A stretch of 64,000 nt of DNA, from the NCBI GenBank assembly GCA_018266295.1, contig JAFEAQ010000019.1, forward strand, positions 124,001-188,000, given 5' to 3'. The notes below the pieces were generated by a model. That model saw only the letters and a list, made by a program, of their open reading frames with translations. It searched no databases and was not told the origin of the DNA. The position numbers were made by a program, and so were the translations under genes. Source of the DNA: Bdellovibrionales bacterium. GTDB lineage: Bacteria; Bdellovibrionota; Bdellovibrionia; Bdellovibrionales; Bdellovibrionaceae. Positions 22,647-44,012 of this stretch are shown in pieces (position 1 is the first letter of the stretch; each line of letters starts with the position of its first letter).

Positions 22647-23351
22647 CTACGATTTTGTAAAAGAAATTTCGATTGTTGTGCCGATGTGGTGCTGGCTTGT
22701 AACAGTCAGGTCGCCTTGCCATGTGTGCATCGTTTGAATCGCGCTATAAAGGCCTAGGCCGTTGCCCTTTTTCTTGGTGGTAAATCCCTCTTGGCCGATC
22801 TTTTTAAGCGTTCTAGCCGGGATTCCGGCGCCATTGTCTCGGATTTTTAAAATGATCTGCTCAGAGGTCTCTTTCCAAGTGAGGGACCAGCAAGTGGCGT
22901 CGGCTTCTTTCGCATTCTGGATCAGATTCCAAAGGATACGATGGAAGTCTCCTATATTGCCAAGAGCCTGAACGTCCTGGGGGAGGTTTTTGTGAAAGCC
23001 CTCAAGCTCCATGGAGTTTTGCAGCTGGAATTTAGCCTCGCGGGCAAAGCATTTGATCGCTTCACAAAGATCAAAGCATTCCACTGGCTTCGCTTTTTGC
23101 GGGCCTTGGGCTTGCTTACGAGCCTGAAGGATTTCTTCGGCGATATTATTAATGCGCTTCACAGCCTCATCGAGAAGGCCTAAGTGATCCAAGTCGGGGC
23201 TTGCTTGCTTCAGGTGGTGGATCGTCAGATTTACGGCGGACAGTGGGCTTCTCAAATCGTGGGCGGCACGGAAGAAAGATTCCATGCTGATCGCCGGTGG
23301 CTGGATTGAGGGCATTGGCTCCTCAAAGTAAGTCCGAAGAAAGAGACCCAT
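22647..23351 (-). CDS. Soluble sensor histidine kinase without a sensor domain
   Basis: A 234-aa protein that is essentially only a kinase core. Its H-box is RAAHDLRSPLSAV (His31), the N-box NLIQNAKEA, the G1 box DNGAGIP and the G2 box GNGLGL. No transmembrane or sensory domain is seen; residues 1-22 are a short Pro-rich lead. GGGAG eight bases before the ATG at 23351 supports the start. It closely resembles the C-terminal half of the fused kinase at 24647-25807 (shared stretches near the H-box and EGFTTK..GNGLGLY.AIQ). It lies divergently from the winged-helix gene at 23679. No receiver partner is adjacent. Confidence 0.85.
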   Translation of the reverse strand: MGLFLRTYFEEPMPSIQPPAISMESFFRAAHDLRSPLSAVNLTIHHLKQASPDLDHLGLLDEAVKRINNIAEEILQARKQAQGPQKAKPVECFDLCEAIKCFAREAKFQLQNSMELEGFHKNLPQDVQALGNIGDFHRILWNLIQNAKEADATCWSLTWKETSEQIILKIRDNGAGIPARTLKKIGQEGFTTKKKGNGLGLYSAIQTMHTWQGDLTVTSQHHIGTTIEISFTKS

Positions 23352-23678
23352 TATTTTTACTCCCGCTTGAGGTCTTTAGTTTTGCCATAAGGACTTAAAT
23401 TTAAAAAGGGCCCCCTAAACCGATTTAATTTATTTCAAGGGCCGTCCAAAGCTTTAACAGTGCGGTCTTGGAGGTTCTTTGAGTCGCGGGGCAAGGGGCT
23501 CCGGTGAAGGGAAAAATGGCCGAAAAACGTCAGTGAAGGCAGTGTCTAAGGATTAAACAAGCATTGATTATTTCCATAAACATTTTTTGTTTTCGGAGTT
23601 TTCCTCGGAAATCCCTTATAAAGAAAGCCTATTTCGAGCCTGAAAACTCAAAGGCCCGGGATAACAAGCGGAGGAATA
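23352..23678. other. Intergenic region between divergent kinase and winged-helix genes (327 bases)
   Basis: It should carry the outward promoters for both neighbours. TTATAAA at about 23616-23622 could be a -10 box for the + gene, but no convincing -35 partner was found. The GCGGAGG before 23679 is a clear ribosome-binding site. No small gene or strong hairpin was recognised. Confidence 0.4.
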
Positions 23679-24212
23679 ATGAAGCACGTTAATGGCTATA
23701 CCGCTGGTGAGCAAACTGCAACTAAGAAGAACATCGCAACCAGTGACTTGATTCATTTTAGTGGAAATTGGGTTTGGAGGGCTGTTGAAGCTCTGGTCCA
23801 AGCCAAAGATTTTAATCCTGATCCTGTATGGATCGCGGATCGTCTGAATATCTCCGCGGAAGCAGCGAAAGATGCTCTCGAGGGGCTTGTTCGGATTGGG
23901 TTAGTTACCGTGACTACGGATGGTATTCAGAGTAGGGCTGAATTTATCGAAGCTAATTGTAATGATTTGGAGAGATCGGATCTCTTTCAAATTCACTCTA
24001 AAATTAAAAATCAAATTTCTGAGAAGATGACCCATAGAGATTCTTATTCGAATGCGATTGTACTTACAAAAGGTAAGTATATGAACGAATTCTACAGAAA
24101 ATTTTCAGCACTTGTTGCTGAGTTGGCAGAGAAGAGTGCGGAAGACAAAGAGTCTAACGAAGTATTTGCATTAGAATTATCATTGGCGCGCATTTCGCGC
24201 ACGAAAGAGTAG
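23679..24212 (+). CDS. Winged-helix DUF4423-like regulator
   Basis: A 177-aa protein resembling the C-terminal DUF4423 part of TIGR02147 regulators, without their N-terminal helix-turn-helix. Residues ~22-85 form a likely winged helix (WVWRAVEALVQAKDFNPDPVW, then IADRLNIS...AL.GLVRIGLV). The C-terminal NEVFALELSLARIS strand corresponds to the family's ending. GGAGG precedes the ATG. It aligns by eye with residues 12-165 of the fused kinase at 24647-25807, including ...W...AL....DF....WI..RLNIS. The gene is AT-rich: 18 G/C in 60 bases at 24001-24060. It is 7 bases upstream of the small secreted-protein gene, probably in one operon. DNA binding is inferred. Confidence 0.65.
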   Translation: MKHVNGYTAGEQTATKKNIATSDLIHFSGNWVWRAVEALVQAKDFNPDPVWIADRLNISAEAAKDALEGLVRIGLVTVTTDGIQSRAEFIEANCNDLERSDLFQIHSKIKNQISEKMTHRDSYSNAIVLTKGKYMNEFYRKFSALVAELAEKSAEDKESNEVFALELSLARISRTKE

Positions 24213-24219
24213 GTGTCCA

Positions 24220-24597
24220 ATGAAGACGTTACTTTCAATTTTAACTATTTTTGTAAGTTTGAACTGCTTTGCGAAAGGTTCAGGCTCGGGAACCAGCGGC
24301 GATAGCTACTACCGCGCAAACAAAACTTGGAACACGGATGTATTAACTGAGAAGTTCCCGGGGCAGGTTTATTATATGGGTAAGAAACAGGCTGAGATTG
24401 AGTTTGCCACTAATAACGGTGGGGATGATAAGGTTGAGATTCGGTCTTTGCGTCCTGAGGAGATTGCGGATTCAGGTTTGATTGATGGATTGAAACGCTC
24501 TCAGCAATCTAAGAAATGGGAGAATGTTAATCTTCCTGTTAAGATCGATATGAATCGCACCATCCTCAATAAAATGGGTGGAATGCAGGTTCGATAA
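24220..24597 (+). CDS. Small secreted protein of unknown function
   Basis: A 125-aa protein with a clear signal peptide (MKTLLSILTIFVSLNCFA, likely cut after Ala18), followed by a Gly/Ser-rich stretch and a small mixed domain. No family was recognised. It starts seven bases after the winged-helix gene with AGGTG just ahead of the ATG, and ends before a strong shared terminator. Co-transcription with the regulator gene suggests a linked role; this is inference. Confidence 0.7.
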   Translation: MKTLLSILTIFVSLNCFAKGSGSGTSGDSYYRANKTWNTDVLTEKFPGQVYYMGKKQAEIEFATNNGGDDKVEIRSLRPEEIADSGLIDGLKRSQQSKKWENVNLPVKIDMNRTILNKMGGMQVR

Positions 24598-24616
24598 AAG
24601 GAAATCATAGTTAGTG

Positions 24617-24650
24617 GTAGAAAAGGCGCTGAGTTTAGTGCCTTTTCTAC
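24617..24650. terminator. Bidirectional terminator between convergent genes
   Basis: GTAGAAAAGGC-G-CT pairs with AG-T-GCCTTTTCTAC across a short loop. It serves the + secreted-protein gene. Its right end overlaps the TAG stop (24647-24649) of the - kinase gene. Its core is nearly identical to the terminator at 25886-25921. Confidence 0.85.
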
Positions 24651-25807
24651 TCTTCGCTGCAAATTAAACTTAGGCTAATTTCAATGCAAGCTCCGTTCTG
24701 CACGTCAGTAAATTGAATTTTTCCATCCCACTTTTCAATATTTTGAATCGCGTAATACAGTCCTAGTCCATTTCCTTCTGGCTTAGTGGTAAACCCTTCT
24801 TTGCCGAGTAAATTTCTAATATTTGATGAAAATCCTTGGCCATTATCTTTTAGAATTATTCTTATGCAATTTTCCTCAATATAGCTTTGATATTTTATTT
24901 CAGTAGCCTTGGCATCAATTGAGTTTTGAATAAGGTTTTTTATAATTCTGTGAAGTTGGGACGAGTTTCCAGATGCAAATTTTTTAGAAGCACTCTTGCT
25001 TCCGATGCTATGGAAAATTTGAATCCTTTTCTCGCTTGAGAAACTCTTTTCAAGCTCTTTTTCAAAAAACTCAAAGTTCAAGTAAGCATTCGTGTCGTCC
25101 GGCTGCTTGATATGGAATTCTTTTTTTAAATTCAATATTCCATTGGCAATCATATTTATACTTGCAACAGTTTCTTTAAGAAAATCTGACAGCTCATTAG
25201 ATGAATTCTCATTTTTTAAAGCATGCGCTATCATGTTTAAAGCAGACAAAGGACCTCGAATATCATGTGCGGCCTGAAAAAGTGATTCCTGCAATATATC
25301 TGATTGTTTGTTTTTTGTAACTGTCAGCTTAGGAATACAAAGATCAAAGGCAAACACGTTGGTGCATCCTTTAGCTAGACCTGCTTCGTGTACTGCATCG
25401 ACAAGAGCGTTATATTTTTTCAGAAAATCATTAATAATTTCGCCATCAGCTAACATGACCCCAAGACTGTTTGGTACGCCAGAAACTATTTTTGTGCTCA
25501 ACTCAGCTCTAGATTTTATATAAAGCTCAACAATTTCCTTTCTTGTTAGGTGGTTCTCCCCGATATCCATGAGCTTTTCATTGGTGCGAAATCCAAATTC
25601 AGTTTTGTGAATTAGGTTTTTGTTTAAGAGCCAGCTAAATGATTCGCTGGCGTGGTCCATGGAAATGTTTAATCTTTCGGATATCCATTTCGCATTTGCC
25701 TGAAAGTCTGGCGAATCTATTAACGCATTAATAGTACGTTTGACCCAACTAGAGGCAAATTCGATCAAATCTTCTTGGGATAGTTCCGGTTCGATTTTCA
25801 TATTCAT
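24647..25807 (-). CDS. Fusion of DUF4423-like winged-helix domain and histidine kinase
   Basis: A 386-aa soluble protein. Residues ~12-165 match the 177-aa winged-helix protein at 23679 (WISERLNIS region; ending VFAFDLCIPKLTV), and residues ~168-383 match the 234-aa kinase at 22647. The kinase part has His181 in AAHDIRGPLSAL, NLIQNSIDA, DNGQGF and EGNGLGL. No membrane segment or receiver domain is seen. The gene is AT-rich (20 G/C of 60 at 25021-25080, against 29 of 60 in the neighbouring gene at 26101-26160). It lies between two near-identical terminators. This could be a regulator controlled by its own kinase domain or a cytosolic sensor kinase; the ligand and target are unknown. Confidence 0.75.
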   Translation of the reverse strand: MNMKIEPELSQEDLIEFASSWVKRTINALIDSPDFQANAKWISERLNISMDHASESFSWLLNKNLIHKTEFGFRTNEKLMDIGENHLTRKEIVELYIKSRAELSTKIVSGVPNSLGVMLADGEIINDFLKKYNALVDAVHEAGLAKGCTNVFAFDLCIPKLTVTKNKQSDILQESLFQAAHDIRGPLSALNMIAHALKNENSSNELSDFLKETVASINMIANGILNLKKEFHIKQPDDTNAYLNFEFFEKELEKSFSSEKRIQIFHSIGSKSASKKFASGNSSQLHRIIKNLIQNSIDAKATEIKYQSYIEENCIRIILKDNGQGFSSNIRNLLGKEGFTTKPEGNGLGLYYAIQNIEKWDGKIQFTDVQNGACIEISLSLICSEE

Positions 25808-25885
25808 AACCTACAATCATAAGCGTTTTATTAATAAATTTAAACAAAATTTGTTTTTCGACCGAAAATGTGCGGATGTCTAGAA

Positions 25886-25921
25886 AATAAAAAAGGCGCT
25901 GGGTTCAGCGCCTTTTTTATT
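25886..25921 (-). terminator. Terminator after the TIGR03545 gene
   Basis: A perfect AAAAAAGGCGCTG / CAGCGCCTTTTTT stem with a four-base loop and T-runs on both strands. It lies 40 bases past the stop of the - gene starting at 27946. It separates that gene from the fused kinase downstream on the same strand. Confidence 0.9.
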
Positions 25922-25960
25922 TTTATGATCCTTGCTTTGTTGGACAACGAAGTTGGAAAA

Positions 25961-38610: not shown

Positions 38611-38948
38611 AATTTGCGCTCAATAACAGCAACAATCTTAACCTGCTTTGTGTGTCATAGTTCAGGATATGTCGAATCGCAAAACGTCCCATGGTTTATA
38701 TCGTTTTTTGGGAAAAATTACAGTGAAAAACACCCTTTAGAAAGAATCGTCACATGTCGTGCTTACTCTGGGAGCGTCATTGCTAAATTGAAAAAAGTGG
38801 GAACTATCTCGAACCAAAACGCTCCAAAAAGCGGAAATATTTGGGGCTATCTGCAGTAGGCTTTTTCTGAGCGCGATTTGCTGGACCAAAGCAGTGAAGT
38901 GGAGCGTTCCTCGTTAAAAAATGACCCCATTGGCCCGATATGTAATTG
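38611..38948. other. Intergenic region between two divergent hybrid kinases (338 bases)
   Basis: It must contain promoters for both kinases. A sigma-28-like sequence occurs at 38915-38941. A short open frame (38614-38859) has no ribosome-binding site or recognisable family and was not called. Nothing else was recognised. Confidence 0.4.
38915..38941 (+). promoter_or_regulatory. Possible sigma-28 (FliA) promoter for the hybrid kinase gene
   Basis: TAAA (38915-38918), exactly 15 bases, then CCCGATAT (38934-38941), which matches GCCGATAA at 6 of 8 positions. The expected start is at or next to the ATG at 38949, and no Shine-Dalgarno is present, so a leaderless transcript is possible. Confidence 0.35.
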
Positions 38949-41462
38949 ATGGATAAGTCTTCGTTATTCCATTTTCTATTAAGGCAATTCGGAACGCAGT
39001 TTGGGGTGATCCTCCTGATTGCTTCCAGCGTTTACTATTTCCAGGGAAATACCTCCAAGGAAGATCTCTATAGTCTTGCGATGCTCATGCAAACCCGTCA
39101 AGCCGTCGAGCAGGCGAACTTTCTAAGTCAGCAGTACCTCAATTCGGGCAAAGTGAAAGATCTTGATGAGTACAACAAATCTATCGTGCAGATGGGAAAA
39201 GTCGTCAGTGAGCTTGCGGATGGGCTTAAAAAATTTCCGGATCATCAAAAGAAGTTCGCTGAAATTCAGAAAAAGACGCGGGTTTATTTTGTTGCGATGA
39301 ATGAGCGCCTTGAGAAACGTCAGCGCAGTGGCGTTGGTCATGGAGACCGCGAAATTGCCAATGCCGATGGCTTGAATGAAGTGCTGAATCTGATCGATGT
39401 TATGAATCGGGATATTCGCGACAATACTCTGCAGCCGTTGACGGTCGCGGGTAAAACTTATCCGCTGTCCTTGTGGTATTACCTAGTGGGCATGGTGATT
39501 GCGGTGTACTCAATCTTGATGAGTTATCGTTTTCAGACAGCTCTTCAAGAGGAGCAGAAGAAGGATATTTCGGATCTAAAAATTCAGTCGATCCTGTTGG
39601 ATGGTATCCTGAATAGTATTAGCGAAGCCCTCGTAGTTGTTGATGATCAGGGGCGCTTCACGCGTTACAACACGGCTGCGCAGAGAATTATCGGCAACAA
39701 AACAAAAAGTATTTCTTCCGAGCAGGATGCTCAGGACTTTGGTTTCTTTGATGTGAATACCATGCAACAACTGTCCGTGAACGAACTGCCTTTTGCTCGG
39801 GCGCTTCGAGGAGAGCAGGTCGAAGACCTCGAGATCATGGTTCATAACGAAGCGAATCCACAGGGAATGTATATCAGTATCAGTAGCCGCTATTTGCGTG
39901 ATATTGACGGCAGTATTCACGGAGCGCTTGCGGTTTTCCGCGACATTAGCCGCCGGAAAGCGACGGAGCAGGAATGGCTGCGCGCGCGTGAATCCGCTTT
40001 AGAAACGGCTCGTAAAAAATCTGACTTCCTCGCGGCGATGAGCCATGAGATCCGCACTCCGATGAATGGTGTGATCGGGATGTCGACTTTGCTTGCAGAG
40101 ACGAAGATGACTGAAGAACAGAAAGACTATGTTGGGACAATTAAACGTTCTGCGGAAGCACTGCTGCGTCTGATTAATGATATTTTGGATCATTCAAAAA
40201 TTGAGGCCGGCAAAATTCAGATTAATCCTCGTCCATTTGATCTACGTCAGATGTGTGAAGATATTATGGAGCTTTTTCATCCCGCAGTTCGCGAGAAAAA
40301 TATTGGCCTTGAAATTAGTTATCTGGGCCGCGAAGAATGGGCCTTTGTCGCAGATCCTGAAAGGCTGCGCCAGATCCTTGTGAACTTGATCGGTAATGCA
40401 GTGAAGTTTACAGAAAAAGGCTATGTGCGCGTGGTGGTTGAGTGTCAGAAGTCCTATGCCGGAAAATCTTCTTTGAAGTTCTCGGTGACGGATACAGGGG
40501 CGGGCCTCAGCGAAGAAGAGAGTCAGTTGCTCTTCCAAAAATACGTTCAGACAAAGTCAGGAATGAAGTTCGGCGGCACCGGTTTAGGTCTGTCGATTTG
40601 CCGTCAGCTCGTAGAGTTGATGGGAGGGCAGATCGGTTTGAGCAGTAAATTGGGCTTAGGCTCGACATTTTGGTTTACGTTAGATTTACCGGAGACGACG
40701 ATTCAGCAGATTCCAGCACAGCAAGAAAGTACTTTTGCCGCCATCTTCAAGGGGCATGTCTTGTTGGCAGAAGATCAGCCGGTCAATCAGCGCGTTGCCG
40801 TGACCTATTTGCAGAAGCTCGGGCTTGAAGTGGATGTCGCGCAAAATGGCCAGATTGCCGTGCAGAAGGCCCTGGCGAAACGTTACGACGTGATCTTTAT
40901 GGACTGTCAGATGCCTGTGATGACCGGTTATGATGCGACAAAAAATATTCGCGCTCAACAGCAGGGCGAGCGGACTCCGATTATCGCGTTGACGGCAGAG
41001 GGAACGAGCGGTGAGCGCAATACTTGCCTTGAGGTCGGGATGGATGACTTCTTGACGAAGCCTCTGGAGCTGGAACGCTTGATCGGGGCTTTGCATCGCT
41101 GGATTAAAACCGATGCACCTATTTTAGATTTAAAGGCTTTGGAAAAATTAAAATCATACGTTGTGAACAACAAGAGTTTGACTGAAGCCTTGATTGAGGA
41201 CTTTCAGAATACGGCTCCAGGCTTGGTCGCAAGTATGAGAACAGCTTTAGATTCCGGGAATTTAGAAGAAGCTCAATCGGCGGCGCATGCGTTGAAATCA
41301 ACCAGCGCGACGCTGGGAGCGACAGCTTTAGCGGGGCTCAGCGAGCGCATTGAAGATGCGTCGGACTTGGATGAAGCCAAGGCGCTATTTGCCGGTGTGG
41401 ATGAACAATTAAAGAAAAGTCTGGCCGAGTTGCAAAAATACTCAACTCGGGCAGCGGCGTAA
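38949..41462 (+). CDS. Hybrid histidine kinase: PAS, HisKA, HATPase, receiver, Hpt
   Basis: An 837-aa sensor kinase with two membrane helices (residues ~12-30 and ~175-197) around a helical periplasmic region. A PAS domain with PAC-like tail (ISRRKATE) is at about 215-335, then HisKA with AAMSHEIRTPMNG (His near 365), NLIGNAVKFTE, DTGAGLSEEE and GTGLGLSI. The receiver has VLLAEDQPVN and its aspartate in FMDCQMPVMTG (near 651), and a C-terminal Hpt domain carries AHALKSTSATLGA (His near 779). This is a complete internal phosphorelay. ATG 38949 is preferred to the adjacent TTG. The PilZ-like response regulator starts 11 bases downstream, likely its output partner. Confidence 0.9.
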   Translation: MDKSSLFHFLLRQFGTQFGVILLIASSVYYFQGNTSKEDLYSLAMLMQTRQAVEQANFLSQQYLNSGKVKDLDEYNKSIVQMGKVVSELADGLKKFPDHQKKFAEIQKKTRVYFVAMNERLEKRQRSGVGHGDREIANADGLNEVLNLIDVMNRDIRDNTLQPLTVAGKTYPLSLWYYLVGMVIAVYSILMSYRFQTALQEEQKKDISDLKIQSILLDGILNSISEALVVVDDQGRFTRYNTAAQRIIGNKTKSISSEQDAQDFGFFDVNTMQQLSVNELPFARALRGEQVEDLEIMVHNEANPQGMYISISSRYLRDIDGSIHGALAVFRDISRRKATEQEWLRARESALETARKKSDFLAAMSHEIRTPMNGVIGMSTLLAETKMTEEQKDYVGTIKRSAEALLRLINDILDHSKIEAGKIQINPRPFDLRQMCEDIMELFHPAVREKNIGLEISYLGREEWAFVADPERLRQILVNLIGNAVKFTEKGYVRVVVECQKSYAGKSSLKFSVTDTGAGLSEEESQLLFQKYVQTKSGMKFGGTGLGLSICRQLVELMGGQIGLSSKLGLGSTFWFTLDLPETTIQQIPAQQESTFAAIFKGHVLLAEDQPVNQRVAVTYLQKLGLEVDVAQNGQIAVQKALAKRYDVIFMDCQMPVMTGYDATKNIRAQQQGERTPIIALTAEGTSGERNTCLEVGMDDFLTKPLELERLIGALHRWIKTDAPILDLKALEKLKSYVVNNKSLTEALIEDFQNTAPGLVASMRTALDSGNLEEAQSAAHALKSTSATLGATALAGLSERIEDASDLDEAKALFAGVDEQLKKSLAELQKYSTRAAA

Positions 41463-41473
41463 GAGGAGTAAGT

Positions 41474-42163
41474 ATGGCGCACATTCTTATTGTCGACGAC
41501 CAACAAAGCGTATTGATGACATTGGAAGCTCTTTTAAAGAGCGATAATCATCTTGTTACTGCCTGTACCAATGCAATCGATGCCATGGATAAGTTGAATA
41601 AAGAACCTTATGACATGGTGATCTCTGATGTGGTGATGTCTGTTGGGGGCACAGGGCTTGCACTTCTTCGCACCATCCGTGGGCAGCCGAAGATTGCGAA
41701 GATTCCGGTGATTTTGTTGACCGGAAAGCGCGAGAAGTCGGATGTTGAAAAAGGTATTCAGGCCGGTGCGGATGACTACGTTGTAAAACCTATTGATCCG
41801 GCGTTGTTGCTGGCGAAGATCAAAGATATTTTGTCCCGTTCTGTTCAGGCAGCACCACGCTTTGCGGAGGCCGCCGTAAACATGAAGGCTGAGATGGAAA
41901 CTAAAACCGATATCATTTCTATTTCTGAATTGGGCTGCACATTGAAATCGAATGTCTTTGCTTCACCTGGCGCCGTGATTAAAATTCATAGCGATGTTTT
42001 CAAAGACATTGGTATTGCGAATCCTACTCTGAGAATTATTTCTGTCGAAGAGGCGGCGAGTGCCGATGGTTTCCGTAAGTTTACAGGGAACTTCGTGGGC
42101 CTCAGTGAAAAAGAACTGACTCCGCTGCGCCTTTGGATCCGCGCGAAAATGCGAGCCGCGTAG
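41474..42163 (+). CDS. Response regulator with PilZ-like C-terminal domain
   Basis: A 229-aa protein. Residues 1-~120 are a receiver: ILIVDDQ, Asp52 in VISDVVM, LLTGK and Lys105 in DYVVKPID. The C-terminal ~95 residues resemble PilZ: SISELGCTLKS matches its (D/N)xSxxG half and a FVGLSEKELTPLRLWI ending is similar. The upstream RxxxR c-di-GMP motif is not evident. GAGGAG precedes ATG 41474 and the gene is 11 bases after the hybrid kinase, so they are co-transcribed. It probably receives phosphate from the Hpt domain. Confidence 0.75.
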   Translation: MAHILIVDDQQSVLMTLEALLKSDNHLVTACTNAIDAMDKLNKEPYDMVISDVVMSVGGTGLALLRTIRGQPKIAKIPVILLTGKREKSDVEKGIQAGADDYVVKPIDPALLLAKIKDILSRSVQAAPRFAEAAVNMKAEMETKTDIISISELGCTLKSNVFASPGAVIKIHSDVFKDIGIANPTLRIISVEEAASADGFRKFTGNFVGLSEKELTPLRLWIRAKMRAA

Positions 42164-42186
42164 AGCGGTGTCAAGAAGCCACCGCT
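42164..42186 (+). other. Hairpin after the response regulator gene
   Basis: AGCGGTG (42164-42170) pairs with CACCGCT (42180-42186) across a nine-base loop, starting at the first base after the stop. No T-run follows, so it is more likely an RNA-stability or attenuation structure than a terminator. Confidence 0.4.
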
Positions 42187-42245
42187 AAAAGATACTTGTG
42201 ATTCTTTGAGCGGTTGTTTAGGCTATTTTCAGCAAGGATGCGAAA

Positions 42246-43133
42246 ATGGCAAAACAAGACGATGAAGTCCCTCAGATCAAAAACTATCTTTCTATTACTT
42301 CCTTTCTGCAAGATATCTACCTCTATAGAAAATCTCTGAATGCCGGTTTCTCCTATGAGAGCTGGGCCGCGGAGATTGGTTTTAAGAGCCGGTCTTTTTT
42401 GAAAATGCTTATTGATGGCGAGCGTGCGATCACCGCTCCTACAGCAGAGACCTTGTGTGATGCTTTTTCTTTTTCAATGGAGGAGCGCTCTTACTTCCGC
42501 CTGCTTGTGAGCTATTGCCAAGCTCGTGATAATGAAGAAAAAGAACTCTATCTTGAAAAGATTTTTGAAAATCTTGGACAGCACCGTGATTTAACAGAGA
42601 TTGTGCACTACAATGAGTTTCTGTCTTCGAAGGAGTTGCCAAAGCTTTTGGTTCTTTTAAGTTTTAGTGATCTTGATAAATCACCGGCGGGGCTTGCGGG
42701 GTTCTTAAAACAGTCCGTCGAACACGTGGATCAAAACCTCGCAAAATTGAGAAAGCTTGAGCTGGCTTCTGTGAATGCAACCACCGGCCAATGGGAGCCA
42801 ACAAAGAAGAACTTCAAAGTGCCGAAGAGCTTTTCAAATAGAGCGCTGACTCATTACCATAATGAATCTCTTTTGGAGGCCATTGAAGCACAAAAGTTGC
42901 CGCCGCATCTTCGCCGATTCCGAAGCTTGTTATTACCTTTGGAAGAAGAGGGCTTTGAGAAGCTTTTGAATGACATTGAGTCTTTGATTTCAAAAAGTGT
43001 GGCTAAATACGATAGCGAGAAGTTGGAAGGCAAGCGCCTTTACAAGATGAACATCAATTTGCATCCCGTGACCGAAAAGCATGCTGCTCACAATTCTGAG
43101 CACGAGTCGACCGAGACGTGTTCTCAAGGGTGA
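42246..43133 (+). CDS. TIGR02147 family regulator (HTH plus DUF4423)
   Basis: A 295-aa protein with the full TIGR02147 layout. The N-terminal part (residues ~12-75) begins ITSFLQDIYLYRK and has the helix-turn-helix YESWAAEIGFKSRSFLKMLIDGER. A C-terminal DUF4423 region carries a winged helix (LAGFLKQSVEHVDQNLAKLRKLEL) and ends YKMNINLHPVTE. AAGGA lies seven bases before ATG 42246. These proteins are abundant in Bdellovibrio and Fibrobacter and are thought to be transcription regulators. It lies 82 bases after the PilZ-like regulator on the same strand. Confidence 0.8.
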   Translation: MAKQDDEVPQIKNYLSITSFLQDIYLYRKSLNAGFSYESWAAEIGFKSRSFLKMLIDGERAITAPTAETLCDAFSFSMEERSYFRLLVSYCQARDNEEKELYLEKIFENLGQHRDLTEIVHYNEFLSSKELPKLLVLLSFSDLDKSPAGLAGFLKQSVEHVDQNLAKLRKLELASVNATTGQWEPTKKNFKVPKSFSNRALTHYHNESLLEAIEAQKLPPHLRRFRSLLLPLEEEGFEKLLNDIESLISKSVAKYDSEKLEGKRLYKMNINLHPVTEKHAAHNSEHESTETCSQG

Positions 43134-43214
43134 GATCAGGCCTAGACTTCTAAACAGATACCAAACCGGCGATACTGACTCCGTGATTTAAACATACAAT
43201 CAAAGGAGTGCTTC

Positions 43215-44012
43215 GTGTTTCGTTATATGTTGGCAATGGGTTTGGTTTCTTCGCTGGTGGGATGTGCTTCGACACAAATGAATGTTTCAGAATTACGAGC
43301 TCCGGCAGGGACTGGCGACGTCGACTCCTCTCAGATGTCAGAGTTTGGCACCATTGTAAGTTATAAATTGCCCATTACTCGAAATGGCAAGCAAACAACT
43401 CGCGTGGCTAGCAGCTATTGGGTTGGCGAATGGCCTATGCCGATGATAGATGTTTTGTCGGATTTTCCTGGAACGACGAAGATTTCCGCCTACACGAACT
43501 TACGCAATCCTCGAGAGCAGGATAAGGTTGCTTGCACGATTAAGAACGGCGTCTACCATCCTTGGTCAAATAACGATCCATCGGCGGCGAACTATTATAC
43601 TTTGAGTGATGTCCAGGATTACAAGGCACTTCGTGATGTAACGTATAGTGCATATTCCTACAAGCAAAAGAAAGAAATTAAGATGAAGATTCCGAAGGGC
43701 GCGTTGATCACAAACGTCGTTTATGGCTCTGAAGGGTATTGTTCAGCCACGCTTAAAATCGGTAAAACACTTCGTTCTATTGATGAAGCATGTTCATTCT
43801 TTATGGAGAATAAAGATTTTCAAAAAATTTCCGCGGATGACAACTTTAGCGAGCAATGGATTTATATGACATGCGAAGAAAAGGACTCCTCCGGCAGGAA
43901 CGTCAAAGCTTTTGTCCAAGATAAGTCTTTGCAAGCAGAGCCAGGAGTTAAAGACGGCTGTCCAAAAGCGTATGGCGTTGCTGGAAGTGCAAAGGACTGC
44001 AGTGCGAACTAA
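43215..44012 (+). CDS. Lipoprotein of unknown function
   Basis: A 265-aa predicted lipoprotein. A short signal peptide ends in a lipobox SLVGC (Cys17), then a mature part with about six further cysteines in its C-terminal half that may form disulfides. The start is GTG 43215 with AAAGGAG six bases upstream. No family was recognised. Its TAA overlaps the TAG of the convergent gene on the other strand. Confidence 0.7.
   Translation: MFRYMLAMGLVSSLVGCASTQMNVSELRAPAGTGDVDSSQMSEFGTIVSYKLPITRNGKQTTRVASSYWVGEWPMPMIDVLSDFPGTTKISAYTNLRNPREQDKVACTIKNGVYHPWSNNDPSAANYYTLSDVQDYKALRDVTYSAYSYKQKKEIKMKIPKGALITNVVYGSEGYCSATLKIGKTLRSIDEACSFFMENKDFQKISADDNFSEQWIYMTCEEKDSSGRNVKAFVQDKSLQAEPGVKDGCPKAYGVAGSAKDCSAN

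Follow-up and report, generated by a model that had tools for sequence, protein, structure and literature searches.

The described systems closest to the locus considered here are the TIGR02147/DUF4423 one-component regulators, which have an in-chain N-terminal HTH, the sensor kinases with HisKA and HATPase_c domains, and the RRNPP pairs such as Rgg, in which the gene of an HTH regulator is followed by that of a small exported product. One- and two-component systems share input domains, and the same input may have an HTH as its output in one system and a kinase in another. A literature search returned nothing on TIGR02147, and no paper was found giving DUF4423 a shared-input role; DUF4423 is mentioned once, in passing, for Bd3700, listed among the proteins that the predator upregulates while growing inside its prey (PMC12546842).

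In the window, i.e. the whole stretch of 64,000 nucleotides that was analysed, which comes from a relative of predatory bacteria, a histidine kinase and a DUF4423 protein are encoded both separately and as one fused chain. The gene K (22647..23351, minus strand) encodes a soluble kinase of 234 aa, with a DHp domain carrying His31 and a HATPase_c domain. It is divergent from W (23679..24212, plus strand), whose 177-aa product is a DUF4423-only protein made of a winged helix and long C-terminal helices; the 327 bp between the two genes (23352..23678) presumably hold both promoters. S (24220..24597, plus strand) starts 7 nt downstream of W and codes for a protein of 125 aa, in which a signal peptide precedes a mature N-terminus rich in Gly and Ser. 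F lies on the minus strand (24647..25807) and produces a soluble fusion of 386 aa, composed of DUF4423 (residues ~9-165), DHp (168-234, with His181) and HATPase_c (~242-382). Between F and the upstream gene, which encodes 672 aa, an inverted repeat with 18-nt perfect arms and a 4-nt loop is found (25884..25923); this is a probable terminator and therefore F is likely a separate transcription unit. A first-pass annotation, made from the sequence alone, had placed the open reading frames of K, W and F correctly and had recognized the correspondence of W and K to the two halves of F, while S was missed.

Pairwise alignments support this correspondence: residues 19-176 of W match 9-165 of F with 29.1% identity over 158 aa (E 2.5e-24), and residues 21-232 of K match 171-380 of F with 38.5% identity over 218 aa (E 2e-36). 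Throughout the genome (4.2 Mb) the two best matches of F are K (E 1.6e-30) and W (E 4.5e-21), followed by a 439-aa kinase (E 2e-14) that is not near any DUF4423 gene. The assignment to DUF4423 (PF14394), already proposed in the first-pass annotation, is borne out by scores of 57.5 bits for W and 40.7 bits for F, both above the Pfam cut-off of 30, and it is in this domain that W and the N-terminal part of F resemble the TIGR02147 regulators. Differently from the latter, W and F lack the in-chain HTH, are linked to a kinase and remain below the TIGR02147 cut-off of 50 (34.8 and 25 bits, respectively), with matches starting at model position 105 or beyond. The gene at 42246, which had been indicated as a full TIGR02147 regulator, is such a protein, with 117.8 bits against the same cut-off.

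As regards the kinase part, HATPase_c is found in K (61.3 bits) and in F (51.8 bits) above the Pfam cut-off of 26.4. HisKA scores are weak (22.9 bits for K and 20.9 for F, cut-off 26.9), with the phospho-acceptor His (H31 in K, H181 in F) and the two DHp helices present, and the residues of the H, N, G1 and G2 motifs are invariant in the alignment of the kinases. K and F share the DHp His, the N, G1 and G2 boxes and the CA domain with the HisKA/HATPase_c sensor kinases, AtoS being the best NCBIfam profile; however, they lack membrane, PAS and HAMP regions, their input is presumed to come from DUF4423, either on its own or in the same chain, and no cognate receiver is nearby. K, W and F all lack membrane segments, as the first-pass annotation had reported. 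The same holds for its observation on receivers, since the nearest such domain is located about 10.9 kb away (window 36658), inside a hybrid kinase; no cognate response regulator is encoded alongside K, W and F or within about 10 kb, and the whole genome contains 74 receiver matches. Further along the window, a row of genes on one strand (38946-44012) holds a complete two-component set beside the DUF4423 regulator: a hybrid kinase (38946-41462) containing PAS, receiver and Hpt domains, then a response regulator (41474-42163), the full TIGR02147/DUF4423 protein (42246-43133) and a lipoprotein-like gene (43215-44012). PADLOC, used to look for a defence system, yielded just a weak ATPase-type match to K, and this candidate was rejected.

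About 20 DUF4423-only proteins were found in the order, nearly all of them encoded in a three-gene operon, H-W-S, which comprises an XRE-type HTH protein of ~130-155 aa (H), the DUF4423 protein and an exported protein that is Gly-rich after its signal peptide. Two of these cassettes are present in the window's own genome, on contig C22 (L087 and L179); no H-like gene was found near the window K/W/S locus. HTH_3 was identified in 5 of 5 H proteins, with pI values of 8-10. Since TIGR02147 proteins carry the HTH and DUF4423 in one chain, H and W together look like a split form of the same regulator. H also matches Rgg-type proteins in the PDB (E 2e-8), mainly in the common HTH; differently from the RRNPP pairs, the effector domain here is predicted as a winged helix with no evident TPR, and the exported proteins have ~80-670 aa, not the size of short propeptides. 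A profile scan of genome and viral collections returned three loci of the already known H-W-S type (L187-L189), an H-W pair (L190) and a TIGR02147 gene (L191). Four H-W-S cassettes (L080, L081, L085 and L179) adjoin conjugation-like clusters, with ~725-aa VirB4-like proteins and small membrane proteins; judged by eye, this suggests that they reside on integrated mobile elements.

The arrangement K(-)/W(+)/S(+) is found with identical order and orientation in another genus, on contig C94 of genome G056 (L088). Comparison of the G056 intergenic region with the K/W intergenic region and the region upstream of F revealed no convincing shared regulatory element. In three genomes of genus g4, taken as Bdellovibrio-type from their position (G007, G016 and G018; loci L083, L084 and L174), the gene of a kinase of 228-241 aa similar to K diverges from that of a full TIGR02147 protein. 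The regulators of G007 and G016 are 63% identical and the kinases 36%; G017 contains a 63%-identical TIGR02147 protein without an adjacent kinase (L195), and therefore the pairing of kinase and TIGR02147 is not universal. Of 67 DUF4423 loci surveyed, 3 have a kinase as neighbour, and neither the other small soluble kinases considered (L171, L172, L173, L175 and L176) nor L177, a kinase of the window's own genome, lie near a DUF4423 gene. The wider search for DUF4423-HisKA-HATPase fusions, proposed in the first-pass annotation, gave no match covering both halves of F in the order or in the phylum, with few candidates scored per genome and remote fusions possibly missed, and the G056 genome showed no copy of F. 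With the sensitivity of these searches, the fusion is found in the window's own genome only.

Phylogenetic analyses agree with a common history of the two partners. In the tree of 58 kinases, K and F group together with supports of 98/88 and the G056 kinase is next (93/81); in the DUF4423 tree (58 rows), window W, F and the G056 W protein form a group (97/76) within which W pairs with F (97/56). The two trees have matching shapes, with moderate supports and long G056 branches. The link between W and K, deduced in the first-pass annotation from the fusion, is thus strengthened by the second K/W/S locus in a different genus and by the concordance of the trees; a DUF4423 kinship and a conserved neighbourhood, on which that proposal depended, are both present. 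Moreover, the group of W, F and the G056 protein falls inside a larger one (98/90) whose other members are linked to H. Because the K-linked W proteins nest among the DUF4423-only proteins of the H-W-S type, the kinase most likely replaced the DNA-binding partner H, and the simplest history consists of a single replacement of H by K, followed by duplication and fusion to give F. A single clade of DUF4423-linked kinases is absent from the best tree but is not rejected (AU p 0.352), a value compatible with either one or two origins of these kinases; those linked to TIGR02147 may share the origin of K and F or have one of their own.

The AlphaFold2 model of W (pLDDT 88, pTM 0.82) contains a winged helix (~20-90) and two long helices. 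Its nearest solved structures are winged helices of the ArsR/MarR/LexA type, with Z values up to 7.9 that show the fold only; Foldseek gave no PDB match with E below 0.001, and no TPR array is evident in the model, the structural search not being exhaustive. In the model of F the DUF4423 domain is followed by DHp helices at 168-199 and 204-234 and then by the CA domain, with an uncertain relative placement of the domains (pTM 0.50). Of 47 sequences, 31 have a DUF4423 recognition helix with a net negative charge and 5 one with a positive charge; being mostly acidic, this helix is unlike the usual DNA-reading ones.

The explanation that fits best, with a probability of about 0.5, is that K and W constitute a cytosolic sensor kinase made of two proteins and F the same in one chain, with DUF4423 as the input module and a receiver encoded elsewhere, in a cassette derived from H-W-S by the swap of H for K. 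The winged-helix domain would act as an input or partner module for the kinase; a signal perceived by DUF4423, with a probable connection to the envelope or to S, the exported protein, would set the phosphorylation state of K or F, which would then pass the phosphate to a response regulator encoded elsewhere. As for its origin, a split one-component cassette H-W-S would have exchanged H for a histidine kinase, generating K-W-S, and F would derive from the same K-W lineage. This reading, which implies that K and W may be in physical contact, is limited by the small number of examples known, only two K/W/S loci and one fusion, and by the moderate supports and long branches of the trees. A different possibility, close to what the first-pass annotation had in mind, is that W is a winged-helix regulator whose binding to DNA is controlled, by direct contact or phosphorylation and with no receiver involved, by K or by the kinase half of F. 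Its similarity to ArsR/MarR/LexA domains, the distance from any receiver and the kinases facing a full TIGR02147 regulator in some Bdellovibrio-type genomes agree with such a role; however, the structural similarity, at Z below 8, concerns the fold only, only F45 and L70 are invariant in the alignment that includes W, with no conserved phospho-acceptor candidate evident, and most W relatives accompany a separate, basic HTH protein. Since relatives possess a separate XRE-type HTH and the helix is mostly net negative, W resembles an input or partner module more than a DNA-reading regulator. Thus, the notion that kinase and DUF4423 protein act together stands as far as the link between W and K is concerned, whereas the control of, or by, a DNA-binding DUF4423 regulator is less likely and this explanation appears possible but doubtful.

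It can also be argued that K is an ordinary orphan cytosolic kinase, whose nearness to W has no meaning, and that F arose as a chance fusion. Where a genome is rich in kinases, one of them will occasionally lie beside a DUF4423 gene by chance; the window's genome encodes many kinases besides its numerous receiver domains, and kinases are neighbours at few DUF4423 loci. An accident of this kind is nevertheless improbable, as the same order and orientation occur in two genera, the trees match in shape, and the halves of F derive from exactly K and W with intact catalytic motifs. Histidine kinases dimerise through DHp, so that F, a paralogue of K apparently transcribed as its own unit, might modulate the K-W pair by forming mixed dimers with K or by competing with W; the identity between F and K is low for mixed dimers, though, and the second K/W/S locus occurs in a genome where no F was seen, which makes this the least probable of the explanations considered. 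Most likely DUF4423 is an input or partner module with two alternative outputs, an HTH or a cytosolic kinase, the latter as K plus W or as F.

The gene S, downstream of W, aligns with small exported proteins encoded downstream of DUF4423-only genes in relatives, and has no Pfam family. Compared with a held-out profile, built without window S and the G056 copy and with E values on a 5000-sequence scale, S gave an E of 9e-7 as a whole protein and of 0.0085 for the mature part; a homology with the exported proteins of relatives is likely, not strong, as it depends partly on the signal peptide and on gene position. In 36 of 62 cases the DUF4423 gene is directly followed, in the same direction, by one whose exported product contains a Gly motif, versus 6 of 367 for other genes in the same loci (Fisher p 2e-29, indicative only, the signal-peptide call being a simple heuristic and related loci not being independent). 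At least two of the six control cases are preceded by regulators resembling missed TIGR02147 proteins. Across Bdellovibrionota, the gene that comes after DUF4423/TIGR02147 (surveyed loci L050-L128 and others) usually encodes an exported protein, ~80-670 aa long, in which the signal peptide is immediately followed by a GNGG, GGGG or GNGDDG motif; stop and start codons of the two genes often overlap. In genus g4 the TIGR02147 genes (L195-L209) often adjoin lipoprotein-like genes with GGGGNGVNGK-type motifs, and a lone homologue of S, of 114 aa (L178; G050 contig C10, 4619-4960), has no DUF4423 gene beside it. A broader proposal, which we consider rather unlikely as it stands, is that DUF4423 is a dedicated sensor of the adjacent exported Gly-motif partner and that, as a module sensing the envelope or a self-product, it is connected across Bdellovibrionota with an HTH of its own chain (TIGR02147), with one encoded separately (H-W-S) or with a soluble kinase (K-W-S and F).

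The K/W/S arrangement is a real and recurrent variant within a family that is essentially unstudied; it has more support than the first-pass annotation could show, and a somewhat different meaning. The principle of shared inputs takes a particular form here, since the swap occurs in part among separate proteins, members of a recurrent cassette that includes an exported product. Predatory bacteria and their relatives encode many DUF4423/TIGR02147 proteins, which have nevertheless been little studied; this locus offers a natural swap between a DNA-binding partner and a kinase for working out the role of DUF4423, and the neighbouring exported proteins provide a specific candidate for the signal or the target of the domain. 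If DUF4423 does sense its exported partner, these cassettes would represent a new class of modular signalling system.
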